From Acaryochloris sp. CCMEE 5410 (GTDB lineage: Bacteria; Cyanobacteriota; Cyanobacteriia; Thermosynechococcales; Thermosynechococcaceae): DNA of 64,000 bases. The notes under the pieces are model-generated. The model ran no database searches, had not been told where the DNA came from, and saw nothing but the letters and a program-made list of their open reading frames with translations. Position 1 is the first letter of the stretch; each line of letters begins with the position of its first letter. Positions 4,890 through 47,368 of the stretch are shown piece by piece. The position numbers and the translations under genes were made by a program. Where the stretch lies: positions 1,674,001 to 1,738,000 of the forward strand of contig NZ_AFEJ02000001.1 of NCBI RefSeq assembly GCF_000238775.2. The letters run 5' to 3'.

Positions 4890-5444
4890 TTATCTCTGAT
4901 ACATTAAGTCGGTTCTTGCTACATATTTCACACCTCTAGACACCTCAGCCCCTTCATGAAGAATGAGATGCTGGAACAAAAGACCAAAGCCCTTTCGAGG
5001 TGTAATTGAGCGTACTGATTCGGTTAGGAAATTTGTTTGTCCACCATCAAAATCATCGTTCAAATAGACGAGAAATGAGTAATAACTCTTTTCATTTCCA
5101 TTCCGTTCAAGTGAGCCATCATAATGAGGGCTAAATTTCATGCCAACTTTATATCGATAGCATCTAAAGCGTTCATTAGCGCTCGACAAGATTCTTCCCT
5201 GCATTGTTGACGGGACGTACTCTTGTACTTTTAAAAATAATTTCTTTGCAAGAGCGGAATCGTTAAAAATAACTCGCTCATTATTGCGTACATTGGTATT
5301 AATCTCGGCCTCTCCATCATTACGCACCGTTGCCAGACTAGGGTTAAGCAGATTGATCTTCCTAATTAATTCATCGCATTCTTTGAATGTCAAAATATTA
5401 GGAATCTTGATAATTAATGGAGCTTCTTTATTGACAATGGGCAT
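4890..5444 (-). CDS. 2-oxoglutarate/Fe(II) oxygenase, prolyl-4-hydroxylase type
   Basis: A 184-residue single-domain protein. The iron site HxD is H107-Y-D109 (FSPHYDG). The distal histidine is H163 (LILHEGAEV), and K173 in VKYVARTDLMY sits where P4H-type enzymes bind the 2-oxoglutarate carboxylate. Length and motif order match the compact P4Hc fold. Such enzymes hydroxylate peptidyl or free amino-acid side chains; the substrate here cannot be told. It stands alone between two mobile elements, with the IS630 remnant upstream of its 3' end and an ISAs1 copy beyond its 5' end, so it may be transferred cargo. Confidence 0.85.
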   Translation of the reverse strand: MPIVNKEAPLIIKIPNILTFKECDELIRKINLLNPSLATVRNDGEAEINTNVRNNERVIFNDSALAKKLFLKVQEYVPSTMQGRILSSANERFRCYRYKVGMKFSPHYDGSLERNGNEKSYYSFLVYLNDDFDGGQTNFLTESVRSITPRKGFGLLFQHLILHEGAEVSRGVKYVARTDLMYQR

Positions 5445-5571
5445 AAATATTTATTGTAGGGAAATTGAACGTACCAGTCATAAGGGACTTCAGCTATCTT
5501 TTAAGCACTTAAATCAATCAGCCCGCATCTACAACAATGTCCAAGATCTGGTAGAGAAGGATATTTTAACC

Positions 5572-6742
5572 CAGGGTTGTTTTACGTTACTCCTAGAAAA
5601 AATAGGATGGTTCTACTGACCAACAGTAGAGAGACCGATGAGCCATCTAATCGATACTTTGAAGCAAGTCCCGGATTTCCGCAGTGCCCATGGCCGTATT
5701 CATCCGTTATGGCTGCTGTTGCTATTGATGGTGATGGGCATGCTTGCTGGATATCAAGGGTACCGTCCGTTAGAAACCTTTGTGAGCGATTATCGCCAGC
5801 CTTTAAGTGAGCTATTGGGGCTTGAGAGCCTCGAAGTTCCGTCTCACTGTACCTTTCGTCGAGTGATGAAGGGGCTTGACTTCCAAGCGTTGAGCCACCA
5901 ATTTGAAGCATGGATGCTCTCGAAAGCCCAGACTCACTCTCCCGATAATTATGCAGCCTCCATTGATGGCAAACGGATTCGTCAGGGGCTGACAGATGCC
6001 AAGGGGAAGCAGCGTTTTGTAGGGTTGGTGAGTTTATTTGCGGTGGAAGCAGGCATCACCCTCAAGCTCGAAGCCCTCACTCAGGAGGATAATAGCGAAA
6101 TCAAAGTCGTCCAGGCACTGTTGGAAACCCTTCAACTCGATGGCTTACTGATTACCATGGATGCCTTACACGCCCAAAAAAACACTTGAGAAGATTGTGG
6201 CCTCGGGTAACGACTATCTCGTGGCGGTCAAATCCAACCAGGGAAGACTTTACAACCATCTTCAGACTTACTTTGAGTGTCTTAAACCCATGGCTGAGCA
6301 CATCCACTCCGCCCAAAGTAGAGGACGAGATGAACATCGGTGTATACAGGTTTATGAGCCTGTCGGCATAGCCTTACAGGAATGGGAGGCAATTCGCTCT
6401 GTGCTTTGTGTCCAACGATGGGGCACTCGCAAAGGAAAGGAAAGGAGTATCACAATACGGCCTATTACATCAGTTCAGCTGCCACCTCACCCCATCATTG
6501 GCAATCTCTGGTCCGAGAACATTGGGGCATTGAAAATCGGTTGCATTGGCCGAAGGATGTTGTTTTTGGCGAAGATGATTATCGACTCGAAGATGAACAA
6601 GCACTGCTCAATTGGTCAGTGCTTAGAACTATTGGGATTAATATCCTGCGGCTAAACGACTATCAATCCCTCAAAACCGCGATGACTAAGCTGGCTAATC
6701 GGGTCGATATTATTTTTTCGCTGCTAACTTAAAACAGCCCTG
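5572..6742 (+). mobile_element. ISAs1-family insertion sequence with 10-bp target duplication
   Basis: Terminal inverted repeats are at 5572-5590 (CAGGGTTGTTTTACGTTAC) and 6724-6742, matching at 16 of 19 positions. The 10 bp TATTTTAACC occurs directly outside both ends (5562-5571 and 6743-6752). This is a clean target duplication of the length known for ISAs1. The 1171-bp element holds one transposase frame, now broken. The intact duplication indicates a simple and fairly recent insertion. Confidence 0.95.
5638..6732 (+). pseudogene. ISAs1-family transposase (H-repeat type), two frameshifts
   Basis: The sequence starts MSHLIDTLKQVPDFR and contains AASIDGKRIRQG, typical of H-repeat associated ISAs1 transposases. 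The frame breaks in a run of seven A at 6176-6182, where DALHAQK should continue into KTLEKIVASGNDYLVAVKSN. It breaks again near 6435-6450, where the unit AAAGG is present three times (5 bp too many). The expected continuation, KEYHNTAYYISS then EHWGIENRLHW, lies in another frame and runs to the stop at 6732. The A7 run could allow slippage, but the 5-bp duplication makes the copy inactive. Confidence 0.93.
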
Positions 6743-6892
6743 TATTTTAACCTGCCATTGAATGTCATTGACTCGTCTAATTGGCTAAAAAGGTAAAGTA
6801 GAAAATCTTCTCTAATACTTCTAGCTAGTTTAGATTGGGTTTATACAATTAGGCTTGATCGACTTAGCTATTCAAACTACAAAAGCCAGACA

Positions 6893-7240: not shown

Positions 7241-7720
7241 TGCAAGTGTCAACACATAAATCGCATTATACTCCGAACGAGTTGAAAGTTTACTTTTTTT
7301 ATGAGCTTCAAATTCCTTGGTAGAGAGAGTTATAGCTTAATCTAAAATGTTAAGCCCTCAGCCGTTGGCAGTATAAACTCATTGCTCTTGCTTTCAGATC
7401 TGTCTGGATTCGCTTGGCGTATCAACAAAGTAGAGTTGCTCTTTGCTGATAGCCCTAACTTACCAACTACGAAGTTGCGATCAAAAGGAGACCACACCAA
7501 TAACCAGTCTCATGAAAACCTGCTAACCCATTACTTGTGAGCAAAGTCTCCTCAGTCTGCTTAGAAGGAATGGCTGAGACTCCTAGCCTATAGTCAAAAT
7601 CCAGCAACTTGTAAGGACTTAGGATTGTCGCCATAGCCAGCTTTAACGGATTAAGAATCATTCAGGGACACACCATCTTTTTCTATAATGAGTGTCTGAT
7701 CATCTGTTTGGGTATTCATC
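7241..7720. other. Intergenic stretch upstream of trpB, no gene seen
   Basis: There is no convincing frame: a 64-codon minus-strand frame at 7467-7661 has no recognisable content. The only signal I can point to is TATAAT at 7684-7689, about 31 bp before the trpB start, treated separately. Confidence 0.5.
7661..7689 (+). promoter_or_regulatory. Possible trpB promoter
   Basis: A perfect -10 box TATAAT (7684-7689) follows a weak -35 candidate TTCAGG (7661-7666) at 17-bp spacing. A start near 7696 would give a leader of about 25 nt before the trpB GTG. The -35 match is poor, so only the -10 element is well supported. Confidence 0.45.
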
Positions 7721-8977
7721 GTGGCTGTTACTCCCTTATCCTCTGCTGACCAATCCTCTGGCGCACAACAATATCCGGATGCCTTGGGTCGCTTTGGTCC
7801 CTACGGCGGGAAGTATGTCCCCGAAACCCTGATGCCCGCCCTGGCAGAGCTAGAATCAGCCCTAGCCCAATACCGCAACGATCCAGACTTTCAGGCAGAA
7901 CTCAGCCAACTGCTCAAAGACTATGTAGGTCGGCCTAGCCCCCTTTACTTTGCCGAGCGGATTACCGCCCACTATGCTCGTCCCGATGGCAGTGGTCCCC
8001 AGATCTATTTAAAGCGAGAAGACCTTAACCATACGGGAGCCCACAAAATCAACAATGCCCTCGCTCAAGCCCTGCTTGCGAAGCGCATGGGCAAGCAGCG
8101 AATTATTGCAGAAACCGGAGCTGGACAGCATGGGGTGGCAACAGCAACCGTCTGTGCCCGCTTTGGCTTTGACTGCGTGATTTATATGGGGGTCCAGGAT
8201 ATGGAACGTCAAGCCCTCAATGTTTTTCGAATGCGGCTTTTGGGCGCGGAAGTTCATCCTGTAGAAGCAGGGACTGGGACCCTTAAGGATGCCACCTCGG
8301 AAGCCATTCGCGACTGGGTGACCAACGTAGAAACCACCCACTATATTTTGGGTTCTGTGGCTGGTCCTCACCCCTACCCGATGATGGTGCGAGACTTCCA
8401 TGCCGTGATTGGCCAAGAAACTCGCCAGCAATGCCAAGAGCAGTGGAACGGCACCCCTGATATCTTGTTGGCCTGCGTGGGGGGTGGCTCGAATGCGATG
8501 GGTCTATTTCATGAGTTTGTACCGGATACTCAAATCCGCATGATTGGGGTGGAGGCCGCAGGCGCTGGCGTTAATACTGATAAACATGCAGCCACCCTCA
8601 CCCAAGGGGAAGCCGGAGTGCTGCATGGGGCCATGAGTTATCTGCTGCAAGATGAAGATGGTCAGGTGTTAGAAGCCCATTCCATTAGTGCGGGACTGGA
8701 TTATCCTGGCGTGGGTCCTGAACATAGTTTTCTTAAAGATAGTGGCCGCTGCGAATATTACAGCGTCACGGATACAGAGGCAGTCGCGGCCTTTCAGCGG
8801 TTAACGGAACTGGAAGGGATTATTCCAGCTTTAGAAACGAGTCATGCGATCGCATATCTGGAAACCCTCTGCCCCCAGTTAGAAGGCAGTCCCCGAATTG
8901 TTATCTCTTGTTCGGGTCGGGGCGATAAAGACGTCCAAACCGTAGCTAAGTTTTTAGAGCAGCAATCTCCCCAGTAG
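7721..8977 (+). CDS. trpB: Tryptophan synthase beta chain
   Basis: A 418-residue PLP enzyme of fold type II, joining indole and serine to make tryptophan as the beta subunit of the alpha2beta2 complex. The PLP lysine is K109 in [10 protein letters not shown]. The phosphate-binding loop GGGSNAMG lies near residue 250. [14 protein letters not shown] near the N-terminus and the C-terminal SGRGDKD are standard for TrpB1. The start is a GTG at 7721; the first 20 residues form a variable extension before [13 protein letters not shown]. The gene is monocistronic here with no other trp gene nearby, as is common in cyanobacteria, where trp genes are scattered. Confidence 0.97.
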
Positions 8978-22035: not shown

Positions 22036-23457
22036 ATGACCGAAGAAAGAACATATTTAGAGCTGTCAGAAGACGAAGGGGTCGCCCACAAGTTTTACGA
22101 AGTGGTGGTGAATGGCGCCGAGCTAAAAATCCGGTATGGACGGATTGGCAATGCAGGCCAAACCCAAGAGAAAACCTTGGCGACCCCCGAGAAAGCAAAA
22201 GCCGAAGCCGAGAAAAAGATCAAAGCGAAGCTGCGCAAAGGCTACGAACATGCGGTCCAGGGGGTAAGGAAAAAGCGGGCCATTACCCGACGGGAAATCA
22301 CCAGTACCCGCTCCTCGGCCAAGCGTGCGCCCGTCCTCTGGAAGTTTGCCTCTGGTGCCTCCGCCTTTGGCATCTTTATTGATGAATCTCGCTGCTGGGT
22401 GGGCAATCAAAAGGGACAAATTTTTACCCTTACCCCCGAGGGCCAAGTTACCCAAGAGTTTAAACTCCCCGATGGCGTTAAATGTATTGTGGCTGATGAT
22501 GATTGGCTCTATGCCGGGTGTGACGATGGCAAAGTCTACGACCTAAGCGGTAAAATCCCCCGAGTGGCCTATTCTATTGCCGAGGATGTCGATATCTTTT
22601 GGCTGGATATCAACGACGGGATTTTGGGGGTCTCGGATCGCCAGGGTGTGGTCACCACCATTAACCATGAAGAAGAATCCCAGTGGAACCAACGCAGTAG
22701 TGGCGATCACGGCTGGATGGTCCGATGCGATGAGATTGGTGTCTACCATGGCCATGCTGGTGGAGTGACGATGTATGACTGGGAAGACGGTCAGGTGATT
22801 TGGAATCAGCGGACCCAGGGGGCGGTCCTGTTTGGCTGGCAGGAAGAGTCAACTGTGTATGCCGGTACCAGTCAAGGCCAGGTCTATTGCTTTACAAAAC
22901 AGGGTCAGCAAGAACAGATTCTTAAATGCGATACCCAAGTTTATTCCTGTGCAGCGGCGGCAGACGGCAAATATGTATTTGCGGGAGACAGTTCCTCTTC
23001 TGTTTATTGTTTTGATGCAGACGGCAAACGCCTCTGGAAACTGGGAACGGGCTGTGGTTCTGCCTTCTCCATGCAGTTTATTCAAGATCGTCTATATATT
23101 GTGACGACGGATGGCTCTTTGGCCTGTATTGATGCCAGCGAAGCCGCCATTCAAGCCGCTCAAGCGGGAACTGTGCCGGATGTTGTGAATGTGAAAGCGC
23201 CGAAACTAGATGCGATCGCAGCCTCATCTACCCTAGAAACCACCACCAATGCTGGCCAGGGCGTGATTTTAGTCTGTGTAAAAGACGGTAGCAAATTGCG
23301 GGTCCGGGTAGAATCTGCGGGTTATCACACTGACTGGAATGTCCAGTTTCCCAAAGAAATGCGGGAAGCAGGAGCGCGCTACGTGGTCGAAGACTTGCGG
23401 GAATCAGCCCGAGGCGGCTTCTATCGCGCCTACGGTGAAATCAAGAAGCTGGTTTAA
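22036..23457 (+). CDS. WGR-domain protein with beta-propeller
   Basis: A 473-residue soluble protein. Residues 1-80 form a WGR domain (YGRIGNAGQTQEKT), a module found in PARPs and in some bacterial DNA-linked proteins. About residues 95-375 contain repeated blades (CWVGNQKGQIFTL, YAGTSQGQVYCF, VFAGDSSSSVYCFDADGKRLW) of a PQQ/WD-like propeller. The C-terminal 60 residues (VRVESAGYHTDWNVQFPKE) form a separate small domain. It converges on the retron reverse transcriptase and the two 3' ends overlap by 17 bp. That tight pairing suggests linkage, but the opposite strands argue against one operon. Function is unknown. Confidence 0.75.
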   Translation: MTEERTYLELSEDEGVAHKFYEVVVNGAELKIRYGRIGNAGQTQEKTLATPEKAKAEAEKKIKAKLRKGYEHAVQGVRKKRAITRREITSTRSSAKRAPVLWKFASGASAFGIFIDESRCWVGNQKGQIFTLTPEGQVTQEFKLPDGVKCIVADDDWLYAGCDDGKVYDLSGKIPRVAYSIAEDVDIFWLDINDGILGVSDRQGVVTTINHEEESQWNQRSSGDHGWMVRCDEIGVYHGHAGGVTMYDWEDGQVIWNQRTQGAVLFGWQEESTVYAGTSQGQVYCFTKQGQQEQILKCDTQVYSCAAAADGKYVFAGDSSSSVYCFDADGKRLWKLGTGCGSAFSMQFIQDRLYIVTTDGSLACIDASEAAIQAAQAGTVPDVVNVKAPKLDAIAASSTLETTTNAGQGVILVCVKDGSKLRVRVESAGYHTDWNVQFPKEMREAGARYVVEDLRESARGGFYRAYGEIKKLV

Positions 23458-24871
23458 AGGCTTGAACGCGGGGTGGATACTTGCGCTTGATTCGCTTGAC
23501 TTGAGCCTGGAATTGGGCTCCGCGTTCAGGATTCACCATTTCCACAAAATTGGCATAGCCTTGGATCTGGGCAAACGAGACCGGCTGGCCGTTCCAATGC
23601 TGATCGTCATAGCCGGACTGCTCAATTTGGTGAAGCAACGCCCGGAATCGCTTGAGGGTTTTACGGTCAACATTCAGCTTTTCATTGACAACCACCCCCG
23701 TCACCTCTTGCTGCCGACCACTGCGAAGCACCCGCGTCTTCTGAGGATGAATTGTAAACCCTTCGTGGGTGACAATGGCATGGGTCCGTCGCAACAGCTT
23801 GCCCACCTGCTGCTGAGGCTGACCTGTGGCTGAGAAGGTTAGATCATCGGCATAGCGCGTATACCGATATCCCAACTCTGCCGCCATGGCCGTCAACCGA
23901 CGATCTAGACGCCGACAGAGCAGATTGGTCAATATGGGGCTGGTAGGTGCTCCTTGAGGCAAATGTCGCTGAGACTGGGCCACATAGTAATGCTGACCAT
24001 CCAAGTCCACCTCCACCACATCCGGTTCTGTACAGAGCAGGGCAAAAATCGTGGCGGCAGCTTCGCTATAGCCAAAAGAGCGAAATAAACCTTTAATCCG
24101 GGGATAGGAAACGGACGGGAAAAAATCTTGGAGATCAAGATTAATCACCACATCGGCTCCCAAGTGTGGCGTTGCATTGGTAACGATGGAGCGCCCCGGA
24201 CAAAACCCATGAGCAGCTTCATGGAGGGGAATGGCGGCTAGCAGCTTCTCTACGATCCAGTATTGAGCCTGCTTCAAGCGGGGCATAGGTGCTGAAATCA
24301 GGCGCTCTCCCCCAGTTTTCTTGGAAATTTTAAAGCGAACATAGTGGGAAATTTGGGCCGTCCGCCGAGAGAAAGCTAAGAAGCGCAACTGGCCAACGCT
24401 AATCTGCATGGCCTTGGCAATTTCTTCTGCCGTCCCATAGGCAGGGAGTCCATATTGTTGAAGTCGGGTGCGATCGCACTCGGTCTGATTAAGTCCCCCG
24501 GAAACCCCTGTTCCCAGATAGACAATATCGCGGGTTTTTCGGTCTTGCCATGCTGCAGCTCGGGCCTGTCGTTCTTGTTCTCGCCGTTCTTTCGTTTCTT
24601 GTCGTTTCTTTTTAGACGCAGCGAGTCGTTCTTTGTAGAGCTGCTTCTTAATGGCGGCTTCGTTGTGGAGTTTGCGGTTCTCGGCCCGCAATGCCGCGAG
24701 TTCTCGCTGAATTTCCCCTTTACGCCGAATCTCAGTAGCCGGATCTTGGGGCATCTCGCCCTCGGCAGGCCAAAATCCTAACCGCACCATTTCTTCTAGG
24801 ATGACCTCATCACGGGAGCTTTGACGGATGCGATCGTAGAGTTCTTGGCGAGTACGGGGTTGATTGGACAT
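23441..24871 (-). CDS. Retron reverse transcriptase, myxobacterial (Mx162-like) type
   Basis: A 476-residue protein. A charged coiled-coil extension fills residues 1-112. From GTAEEIAKAMQISVGQLRFLAF (148) onward it is a reverse transcriptase. It carries the retron-specific NAxxH motif (NATPH, 232-236), motif A INLDLQDFF with D246, PQGAPTSP (305-312), the catalytic YADD (340-343) and the retron VTG motif (390-392). The layout, including IVYLGTGVS before the RT core and AAHGF-PGRSI in it, closely recalls the Mx162 enzyme as I remember it. It should prime from a 2'-OH of its own RNA to make msDNA. That RNA is visible directly upstream (24929-25156), 57 bp before the start codon. No maturase or group II intron domain is present. 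Confidence 0.95.
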   Translation of the reverse strand: MSNQPRTRQELYDRIRQSSRDEVILEEMVRLGFWPAEGEMPQDPATEIRRKGEIQRELAALRAENRKLHNEAAIKKQLYKERLAASKKKRQETKERREQERQARAAAWQDRKTRDIVYLGTGVSGGLNQTECDRTRLQQYGLPAYGTAEEIAKAMQISVGQLRFLAFSRRTAQISHYVRFKISKKTGGERLISAPMPRLKQAQYWIVEKLLAAIPLHEAAHGFCPGRSIVTNATPHLGADVVINLDLQDFFPSVSYPRIKGLFRSFGYSEAAATIFALLCTEPDVVEVDLDGQHYYVAQSQRHLPQGAPTSPILTNLLCRRLDRRLTAMAAELGYRYTRYADDLTFSATGQPQQQVGKLLRRTHAIVTHEGFTIHPQKTRVLRSGRQQEVTGVVVNEKLNVDRKTLKRFRALLHQIEQSGYDDQHWNGQPVSFAQIQGYANFVEMVNPERGAQFQAQVKRIKRKYPPRVQAFKPAS

Positions 24872-24928
24872 AGAGCCGAGAAAGGTGAACTCGATGATAT
24901 AAGTAGCGATCTATTTCGAAAAAATAAA

Positions 24929-25156
24929 CCCGGTCAGTTAAGCGCCTCTTCGTAAACCTCTTCGGACTGGATTGCTCAACTCGAGCGGGGCCGCTCTACC
25001 AGTGCTCGTTAGTTTCATGGAAACTAAACCGTAACAGCACTGGTAGAGCGAAGCCCCGCACAGTAAAGAGCAAGCCAGTGATGCGCGTTTAGACTAATCA
25101 CATGAATGGCGATGCACCATTCGGGTTGCAAGGGGTAAACTTAAACTGACCGAGCT
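24929..25156 (-). ncRNA. Retron msr-msd RNA
   Basis: Read on the minus strand, all parts of a retron RNA occur in order. a1 is CGGTCAGTTTAAG at 25152-25140. The msr has two stem-loops: GAATGG/CCATTC at 25122-25104 and GTGAT/ATCAC at 25101-25078. The msd hairpin at 25059-24985 has stems of 7 bp (GCGGGGC), 15 bp (CGCTCTACCAGTGCT) and about 9 bp around a short loop. a2 is CTTAACTGACCG at 24942-24931. a1 and a2 pair over 12 bp with one bulged T, extendable by wobble pairs to 24928/25155. The 3'-terminal G of a1 (25140) is the likely branching guanosine, by analogy with Ec86. Exact msDNA ends cannot be read from sequence. Confidence 0.9.
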
Positions 25157-25182
25157 ATATAGTACTTTTGTACTGTTAGTGT

Positions 25183-25212
25183 ATCATAACACTCTCTTCG
25201 TAGAATGCCCAA
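25183..25212 (-). promoter_or_regulatory. Candidate retron promoter
   Basis: On the minus strand a -35 candidate TTGGGC (25212-25207) is followed after 18 bp by a good -10 box TATGAT (25188-25183). A start near 25176 would place the transcript just upstream of a1 and include the whole msr-msd and the RT gene. The small palindrome AGTACAAAAGTACT (25174-25161) would lie at the very 5' end of that RNA. Confidence 0.5.
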
Positions 25213-26832: not shown

Positions 26833-28682
26833 GATGCTGTTGGCGAATGTACTACGAGAGATTTTTTTGTATTATCAAAACCTGAAAATTTGTCAATTCT
26901 AGGGAGTGGCTAACGCTGCAAATCGCGATGTCCGGGTTTGAGCATGCGGTGTTCCCTGCAACCATGAAACAATGCGTTTTACATTGATCGCAGTACTTGT
27001 GAGCACATGCTGCAAGCGCGTTTTAGCTAATCCTAAATAGCGAGATCGCCTCATTCCAAAGGCATTGACTCCTTGCGAAATAGTCCCTTCAATCCCCGCT
27101 CGCTTGTTATAAGTCTGTTGCCATTCTTCTGTATTTTGTTGCTTTCGAACCTCTTGCAATGCTTGATGTCTTTTTTTAGTACGTAGGGTCAGAGACCTCG
27201 CTTCAGTGGGGGAACGAGTACATAAACCACGATGCTGACACAATCGACAGTCTGTCCGGGAGAACTTGACAACAATCACTCGGTTGCCCCAAGCATCTTT
27301 TGCTCCTTTCCAAGTTCGGCTTTTTTTGCCTTGAGGACAAGTCACTCGTCGCGTATTCCAATTGATCTTGAATTGGTCTAAATCATATGCTTCAGGGGTT
27401 TTGGCTTGCCAACTTGAGTTGGGTCGTGTGGGGCCAATTAATGTCACTTCATATCGACTTTGGCTTGTTACAAGCAATTCACTATCAACATAGGCTGAGT
27501 CGACAATATGTTCACTTGGAAGTAAGTCTTTGAGTTTCAGTGCCTTGTGTACTTTTTCAGTCTGATCGACATCAGCAAGATGAGCATGGGTCGTCAGGAC
27601 ATTAGTAATCAGATGCATCTGATTCTCGTCACAGGATTCTGTTAAATGTACCTTGTAACCAACCCAGGTAGTGGTTCTCTTATTGGCATAGTGAGCCTCA
27701 GGGTCATAGGGTGAATCGAAGCGCTGACCTGCAGGAGGTAAATCCTTCGCGGGCGAAGCCGGACTTTGCCGCGTTCAACGAAGTATTGATGGACCCAAGT
27801 CAGACGCATAATCTCAACAGTTTGAATCTGGCGCAGATGAATAGGAGTAGTTTCATCCCAAAGCTTTTCAAGCAACTGCATCCCATCCCTGCCAATCATT
27901 TCAGCGTGTTTTTGGCGTGCTGCTATTCCCTTAGGCAGATGATACTCTTCTACTGGTAATGCGTAACGGCCATACCAATCTTGTGGAACCCATTGCTGCA
28001 ACCAATCAGGATCAATTCCAGCGATCTCGTTCAGCACCGCTCGCAAGGTTTCTCCAATACCTTCAAGTCGATTCAGCATCCGAATATGAGCGATGACATG
28101 GGTGGCGTCTGTTCGTTGCTTACCACCTGCTTTGAGCCATTCTTTCTCTTGGCATCGTTGCAACAAGAGATCGAGTAGATGCTGTTCCGTATGACTTTGG
28201 ATAAGACGCTGACGGAATTCACATAGCACCGAGAAATCAAATCCTGAATCGGTTAATTCTAGTCCTAGCGCATATTTCCAATCAATTCGACTGCGGACAG
28301 CATCTGCTGCCTTCCGATCAGTCAGTCCTTCCATAAACTGCATGACACAGATTAGAGCTAAGCGCCAGGGACTAATAGCAGGTTGACCTTGAGCTGGATA
28401 TAAAGCTGAGAAGTCTTGATCGGTGTAGATGGTTCCTATCTCTTCTCTTAAAGCCATGAACACATTGCCTTTAGGGAATGCAGCATGTGCAACACGAATA
28501 GTTTCTTCAGGTATAAAACCAGGAGCATGCGGTTGAAGTGACATAGTGTTGAGAGTTCTGATAACGATTAGTTTGGATACTCAACTAATTATCAGTGCTT
28601 ATTTTTGTACTTTAGATAGCAAAGTGAAATCAGGTTTTGATAATACAAAAAAATCTCTCGTAGTACATTCGCCAACAGCATC
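26833..28682 (-). mobile_element. IS1182-family insertion sequence, 52-bp inverted repeats, 7-bp duplication
   Basis: Perfect 52-bp terminal inverted repeats lie at 26833-26884 and 28631-28682 (outer ends GATGCTGTTGGCGAATGTAC). Both are flanked by AGGGACT (26826-26832 and 28683-28689), a 7-bp target duplication. Perfectly matched ends and an intact duplication show a recent insertion, although its transposase has already lost a base. It lies inside an ISL3-type transposase remnant. Confidence 0.95.
26899..28544 (-). pseudogene. IS1182-family transposase with one frameshift
   Basis: The N-terminal part (from 28544) has the IS1182/IS5-like features PWRLALICVMQFMEGLTDRK and FDFSVLCEFRQRL. After GKVRLRP near 27765 one base appears to be missing. 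The protein should go on KDLPPAGQRFDSPYDPEAHY, and that continues in another frame to RAGIEGTISQGVNAFGMRRS and the stop at 26899. The C-terminal half includes the cysteine cluster DCRLCQHRGLC, common in this family. A single indel means the copy could revert or be suppressed, but as read it makes no full transposase. Confidence 0.92.
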
Positions 28683-28847
28683 AGGGACTTAACAAAAAAC
28701 TGAAAAGACTCAAACGACAGATGTATGGACTGGCTGGACGGGACCTGTTGAATAAGCGTTTGGTTTTAGCCCACTGAAATGCTGGACAGTCATACCGTGG
28801 GCGTACAAACTGAAGTTGCTGTTCAAATGAACAACGTTGATTAATTC

Positions 28848-29411
28848 ATGAGAAAGCCAGCAACAAAAGCCGATTTAATGCCACCCTTTAGGAAGATAGG
28901 TGAAGAAGGGTGGGGGAAAAATCTTCAAAAACTTCTCACTGAATATGGAATAGAGCCTTCACAAAGATTATCTGAAAAAGCAGTCGAACAACGTGAAAGA
29001 GAGTTAGGACTAAATTTTCCCGATCCATTACGTAGCTTCCTTATTGAGTTTAGTCACACTAATCTGGGTCGTTTTTGTCTCTATCCTCTCTATTCAATTG
29101 CTCCACCCACAGATATATGGTTTCGTGACTTTCTTACATCAGAAGAACAAGAGCAACTTCAAGATCTGCTCGGCATAGCTAATTCTGGTTCCGATAATGT
29201 CTTGGCGATAGATCCAATCACAGGCTATTGCTACATTTGCAACCACGACCCTGCTGGTATTTTTCTGGAAGCCAATTCGTTTGACGAATTTCTTCAGAAA
29301 ATCATTATTGATCTTAGCTGGGGATACTATGGTTGGCCGGATCCTCATGTCGAGGAACTTGCTATGGAGTTGAAGCTCGATCTCTTTGGTGATAGATCTA
29401 CGAAGATTTAA
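28848..29411 (+). CDS. SMI1/KNR4-type (SUKH) protein
   Basis: A 187-residue soluble protein. The core ERELGLNFPDPLRSFLIEF (about residues 47-65) is the start of the SMI1/KNR4 fold, where an acidic helix is followed by a hydrophobic L-P-x-x-Y/F-K/R-x-F segment. The later LAIDPITGYCYIC and FDEFLQKII match the strands and last helix. Bacterial members are usually immunity proteins against contact-dependent or polymorphic toxins; no toxin gene is visible here. It lies directly behind the nested IS pair and ahead of a small transposon-like element, so it may be an orphan immunity gene. Confidence 0.75.
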   Translation: MRKPATKADLMPPFRKIGEEGWGKNLQKLLTEYGIEPSQRLSEKAVEQRERELGLNFPDPLRSFLIEFSHTNLGRFCLYPLYSIAPPTDIWFRDFLTSEEQEQLQDLLGIANSGSDNVLAIDPITGYCYICNHDPAGIFLEANSFDEFLQKIIIDLSWGYYGWPDPHVEELAMELKLDLFGDRSTKI

Positions 29412-47261: not shown

Positions 47262-47368
47262 AGCTCAGTTAAGTCCTCGAAACGGCAACTTGTCTCGAAA
47301 GAGCAAGACGCAAATTAACGAGTCTAACCCTTTATAGGCATGATGGTCGTTAATACCGAAGGGACTTT
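47262..47368 (+). promoter_or_regulatory. c-di-GMP-I (GEMM) riboswitch candidate
   Basis: The + strand shows the GEMM-I core. P1 pairs AAGTCC (47271-47276) with GGACTT (47362-47367). ACGGCAAC opens P2, whose stems CTTG/CAAG (47289-47292, 47304-47307) and CTC/GAG close on a GAAA tetraloop (47297-47300). The hallmark GACGCAAA is at 47307-47314. AACGAGTCTAA then aligns with the consensus ACGGGTCTAA, and CATGATGGTCG with TATGATAGCCG, before TACCGAA. Order, spacing and P1 closure all agree with the class. No + strand gene follows; the nearest frame is 26 codons from ATG 47375. The transcript would run antisense into the exopolysaccharide gene. Confidence 0.8.

Follow-up and report, generated by a model that had tools for sequence, protein, structure and literature searches.

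A type XIII retron with dispersed parts in the cyanobacterium Acaryochloris sp. CCMEE 5410

The stretch analysed here (the window) comprises 64,000 nucleotides of the 8.09 Mb genome of Acaryochloris sp. CCMEE 5410. It contains, on the reverse strand at 23441-24871 (C1:1697444-1698871 in the genome), a gene for a reverse transcriptase (RT) of 476 aa with an N-terminal extension. The open reading frame is intact, and the motifs listed in a first-pass annotation of this DNA are all found at the residues given there: NATPH (for NAxxH) at 232, YADD at 340 and VTG at 390. The top PADLOC model for the protein is RT_XIII (662.8 bits, E 8e-200), the next being RT_other (353.1 bits), and Pfam RVT_1 matches at 1.7e-23. 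This assignment replaces the likeness to Mx162-type enzymes that the first-pass annotation suggested. The nearest RT with a solved structure is that of Ec86 (9e-45), while the nearest relative of the locus is found in Acaryochloris sp. IP29b_bin.137, whose RT is 94% identical. The search for a viral origin of the RT covered 2.9 million viral contigs and phage records, among which no close relative turned up. A forward-strand gene at 22036-23457, convergent with the RT gene and sharing 17 bases with its 3' end, encodes a 473 aa protein with a WGR domain (Pfam WGR, 4.5e-17) and a beta-propeller (PQQ_2, 7.3e-15). Upstream of the RT gene and on the same strand lies an msr-msd RNA, with a conserved core at 24947-25133; it is preceded by a promoter-like sequence found by a consensus scan (TGGGCA-17-TATGAT, 25183-25211, reverse strand), which the Acaryochloris relative L031 shares.

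Elsewhere in the window, an IS-like element with a DUF772/DDE transposase occupies 26833-28685, and five more copies, 99-100% identical, occur elsewhere in the genome. It is adjoined at 28848-29411 by a gene for a SMI1/KNR4 (SUKH) family protein, a family that often provides the immunity of toxin systems. A c-di-GMP-I riboswitch (54.3 bits) at 47274-47360 on the forward strand faces a sugar-transferase gene of the other strand from its 3' side; 1.8 kb away, the first forward gene of at least 120 aa encodes an RtcB-like protein.

The upstream RNAs of 18 relatives were aligned by sequence alone and then folded. The consensus fold has 55 pairs, 40 of which show changes on both sides. The fraction of cells that are paired is 94.0%, versus 76.0% in shuffled alignments, and double-change cells number 171, versus 47; neither observed value is reached by any of 500 shuffles. 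Shifting the partner by 1-3 columns lowers pairing to 32-42%, and the single-strand fold of 24920-25170 has a z score of -8.55. The RNA upstream of the RT is a real structured RNA. Its msd hairpin, with outer and inner helices, spans 24966-25079 on the reverse strand (helices 3-6, with two-sided changes in 35 of 43 pairs); the 75-nt hairpin first described at 24985-25059 is present, as the inner part only of this longer structure. The same annotation proposed two msr stem-loops, one of which (25104-25122, reverse strand) is backed by covariation, with two-sided changes in 5 of 8 pairs and 100% of cells paired. The other appears in the single-sequence fold only, is missing from the consensus, and was rejected.

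A covariance model built from the aligned RNAs, R1, scores the host RNA at 203 bits and finds exactly one copy in the genome. It also recovers RNAs outside its training set, in seven cyanobacterial genomes discussed below and in Methylobacterium bullatum (NZ_LR743510; 125.8 bits, E 4e-29), where the RNA lies between the RT gene and the gene of the partner protein SWIM. R1 provides a handle on the type XIII RNA, which no retron family of Rfam matches, either at the gathering or at the E-value threshold. Duplicated RNAs are seen twice: locus L096, from Anaerolineales (Chloroflexota), has a tandem msr-msd pair (7465-7651 and 7728-7914) before one RT, the msd hairpins of which differ, and in G329 (L108) two copies lie by SWIM (6606-6791 and 5280-5511), of which the latter is longer and scores lower (91 bits).

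The core is flanked on the reverse strand by two arms, a1 (25140-25152) and a2 (24931-24942), which lie outside the alignment; their sequences differ among loci and pairing is kept within each locus. The repeats noticed on first inspection do pair, with compensation over 25 loci: a locus's own arms average -26.4 kcal/mol, versus -13.3 with an arm of another locus, and the own-arm energy is reached by 0 of 5000 permutations. The pairing is weak at two of the 25 loci, L103 and L105. Adjoining a1 is the sequence CCTTGCA (25127-25133, reverse strand), invariant in 18 of 18 RNAs, which contains the likeliest branch point, G25129. The sequence context of this invariant G is unlike TAGC, and its putative role in priming is proposed by analogy with the TAGC of known retrons. 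The branch had previously been expected at a G near 25140, a position that belongs to the variable a1 arm. In Ec86, the RNA is laid out in the order a1, priming G, msr, msd and a2. By analogy with this layout, and given the invariant CGAAG that adjoins a2, the likely first template base, corresponding to the 5' end of the cDNA, is C24952 (reverse strand). An RT associated with a genuine msr-msd makes the identification of a retron strongly supported.

Type XIII is part of a retron classification said to be that of Mestre et al., from 2020. The assignment of the RT to RT_XIII therefore gives names to the partner families, SWIM_XIII and WGR_XIII. When the neighbours of 40 RT loci were clustered, three proteins recurred: SWIM_XIII (~547 aa), WGR_XIII with HEAT/ARM repeats (~1065 aa) and a WGR + beta-propeller protein (~478 aa). 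Only the last is encoded within the window. The idea of an orphan RT without partners was ruled out by a whole-genome search, which finds one full-length copy each of SWIM_XIII (C1:1951238-1952875) and WGR_XIII (C1:1947963-1951175), both on the strand opposite to the RT and about 252 kb from it. The adjacency of these genes to the RT, which is a habit of the type and no proven requirement, thus fails in this host. The retron had been described as complete; it is not complete at the locus, because the partner genes of its type sit that far away. SWIM_XIII has a weak SWIM zinc finger, and WGR_XIII a WGR domain and HEAT repeats; the domain search of both recognised no catalytic or toxin domain. 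The AlphaFold model of SWIM, based on a two-sequence alignment, has a pLDDT of 33 and is not usable. The host and its relative G001 have intact copies of the four core parts, with identities between the two of 94% for RT, 95% for WGR and 98% for SWIM.

In a phylum-wide sample of 386 cyanobacteria, the 15 genomes that have a full-length RT_XIII are exactly those that have a full-length SWIM_XIII. The full ncRNA is present in 13 of them, and the other two are genomes of 1.7-1.8 Mb with diverged RTs. In the 371 sampled cyanobacteria without a full-length RT_XIII, R1 finds none but two short RNAs, both of which adjoin N-terminally altered RTs. Both partners are present in all 24 RT genomes tested, and both are absent from the five congeners (5/5) without the RT. 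The RT tree has two groups, in one of which the RNA adjoins the RT and in the other SWIM. In the seven genomes recovered by R1, the ncRNA is found by SWIM and apart from the RT: 640 kb away on the same contig in G443, ~28 kb away in G493, and on a different contig, several being far from contig ends, in G077, G295, G329, G360 and G455. The flanks of RTs without an adjoining ncRNA (up to ~8-10 kb, less at contig ends) contain no ncRNA or SWIM gene; draft assemblies constrain the statements about distance in split genomes.

Two other arrangements were observed around these RTs. In three loci where the msr-msd is elsewhere, an RNase III gene lies directly 5' of the RT (L078:7456-8169, L042:7630-8313 and L085:7010-7711); its product may take part in processing, or the gene may be a mere neighbour. 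Weakly matching RNAs of 80-100 nt lie before or after type XIII-like RTs that have another N-terminus (L047:7258-7340, L088:9838-9917, L044:6090-6188 and L090:7192-7290); possibly these form a compact sub-type.

Methylobacterium and several cyanobacteria have the order WGR-SWIM-RNA-RT. The congener G003 has an empty site, in which the genes to the left of the RT locus (up to window 21880) are separated by 135 bp from the block found upstream of WGR_XIII, uniting two places that are distant in the host. At the same junction, the congener G004 carries a scar, in which 28 WGR_XIII codons are fused to a point (window 22021) lying 14 bp before the start of the WGR-beta-propeller gene. Taken together, the empty site and the scar indicate that the cluster WGR-SWIM-RNA-RT, followed by a head-on beta-propeller gene, most likely formed one contiguous block in an ancestral Acaryochloris. 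Most likely, G004 then lost the whole cluster by one deletion, and in the host and G001 it was split between SWIM and the RNA. The orientation in the host is compatible with one inversion of ~253 kb. A simple inversion was not retained as the proven cause, the outer flanks in G001, G002 and G004 giving no confirmation. A decaying copy is seen in G019 (L043), which has an RT with in-frame stops, a broken WGR gene and a WGR-beta-propeller fragment by the msr-msd.

Computed across 21 genomes, the protein distances of the RT, of WGR and of SWIM are correlated with one another at 0.79-0.87, and at 0.77-0.86 given recA, which itself correlates with the three at 0.28-0.33. In split genomes alone, the correlation is 0.76-0.80. 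RT, SWIM and WGR therefore co-evolve whether they are linked or not, and a retron type can be scattered over the chromosome yet inherited as one system. Since the parts are present one-to-one and co-evolve, the simplest reading is that they act in trans in split genomes. The locus holds a genuine retron, which belongs to the known type XIII and takes an unusual, dispersed form; the best explanation, which we consider reasonably probable, is that its parts are separated and that its partners act in trans.

The following working can be proposed. The RNA would fold via a1/a2, and the RT would prime on the 2'-OH of G25129, start copying the msd at about C24952 and continue across the hairpin; the product would be a branched RNA-DNA whose DNA part measures ~130-140 nt. 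The complex of RT and msDNA might then bind the SWIM zinc-finger and WGR-HEAT/ARM proteins made in trans, holding both inactive; once the complex is disturbed, by phage infection or by DNA damage, the cell would stop growing. A retron is an RT that makes a small RNA-linked DNA, usually as part of a virus alarm, and an anti-phage role is suggested here by analogy with the family.

Defence systems are seldom dispersed in this way, and a housekeeping role would fit the dispersal too. A domesticated retron, with a cellular job such as DNA-damage or stress signalling instead of phage defence, would account for the dispersal in about ten genomes and for the lack of a close relative among the viral and phage sequences searched, and the WGR domains of PARP proteins bind DNA ends. 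This reading is nevertheless unlikely: the system is patchy (15/386 cyanobacteria), its RT follows recA weakly (0.28) and a relative is found on a Methylobacterium replicon, so that it moves and is lost in the manner of defence systems. That the retron died after the split, the RT-RNA and SWIM/WGR pairs persisting by chance, is less likely still. The parts do lie ~252 kb apart in the host, and decay does occur, as the RT stops and broken WGR frame of G019 and the loss of the whole cluster in G004 testify. Against it, the four core parts are intact in the host and in G001 with the fold of the RNA kept, each part is present as one copy in split and unsplit genomes alike, and co-evolution holds in the split ones.

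The WGR-beta-propeller gene lies 3' of the RT on the same strand in G111 and G034, adjoins WGR_XIII in G106, and is present in two copies by the RT in G137. It occurs in 9 of 14 RT genomes, versus 10 of 180 others (p = 1.6e-7, kinship ignored). Since only 9 of the 14 have it and it is also found in genomes without any RT or ncRNA, the protein is associated with the system, not obligatory. It is a type XIII associate without a model of its own in the family library and, judging from linkage only, probably an accessory sensor or regulator. Its AlphaFold model (two-sequence alignment) has a pLDDT of 53 and is beta-rich, too weak for a fold search. A two-part retron, in which RT and RNA would dispense with SWIM and WGR_XIII and use the adjacent WGR-beta-propeller as effector, fits the enrichment of this gene and its place directly beside the RT, in one orientation or the other, in several genomes, but is very improbable, as the gene is missing from many RT_XIII genomes, in which SWIM and WGR_XIII are always there, and exists without any RT or ncRNA. 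We lean slightly towards a trans-working retron whose RT, template and two partners occupy separate sites in several cyanobacteria, the beta-propeller protein being its fifth component. Such a retron would be dispersed and integrated into its host, in contrast to a compact cassette for defence.

Retrons are searched for, and judged complete, by whether RT, RNA and effector lie side by side. Surveys of neighbourhoods would call the present loci orphan RTs or miss their RNA, because adjacency fails where co-occurrence and co-evolution hold. Template RNA and RT are naturally up to 640 kb apart within a single contig (G443), which makes trans action of the msr-msd testable in vivo. A literature search of partial coverage returned nothing on the msDNA of type XIII, nor on retrons whose template is unlinked to the RT, and no priority is claimed.

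Among known retrons, Ec86 (Eco1) has the nearest solved RT and the same RNA layout, the priming G being putative in the host, with a different RNA sequence. Its effector is nucleoside deoxyribosyltransferase-like and unrelated to the type XIII partners. The myxobacterial retrons Mx162, Sa163 and Mx65 have a long N-terminal RT extension, as here, whereas their priming context is CAGC/GAGC instead of the putative CCTTGCA. In a published tree (Simon et al. 2019, PMC6868368), RTs of myxobacteria fall together with putative ones of cyanobacteria. Putative cyanobacterial retrons have already been reported (PMC6868368), including one in Trichodesmium erythraeum (PMC8867640). The closest likeness is with type XIII itself (PADLOC RT_XIII + SWIM_XIII + WGR_XIII/HEAT-ARM_XIII), which shares the RT and partner families and the position of the msr-msd upstream of the RT. 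Unlike the usual type XIII, however, the host has its partners 252 kb off and other species have the msr-msd apart from the RT, and, unlike in the type XIII library, a WGR-beta-propeller gene is attached here.
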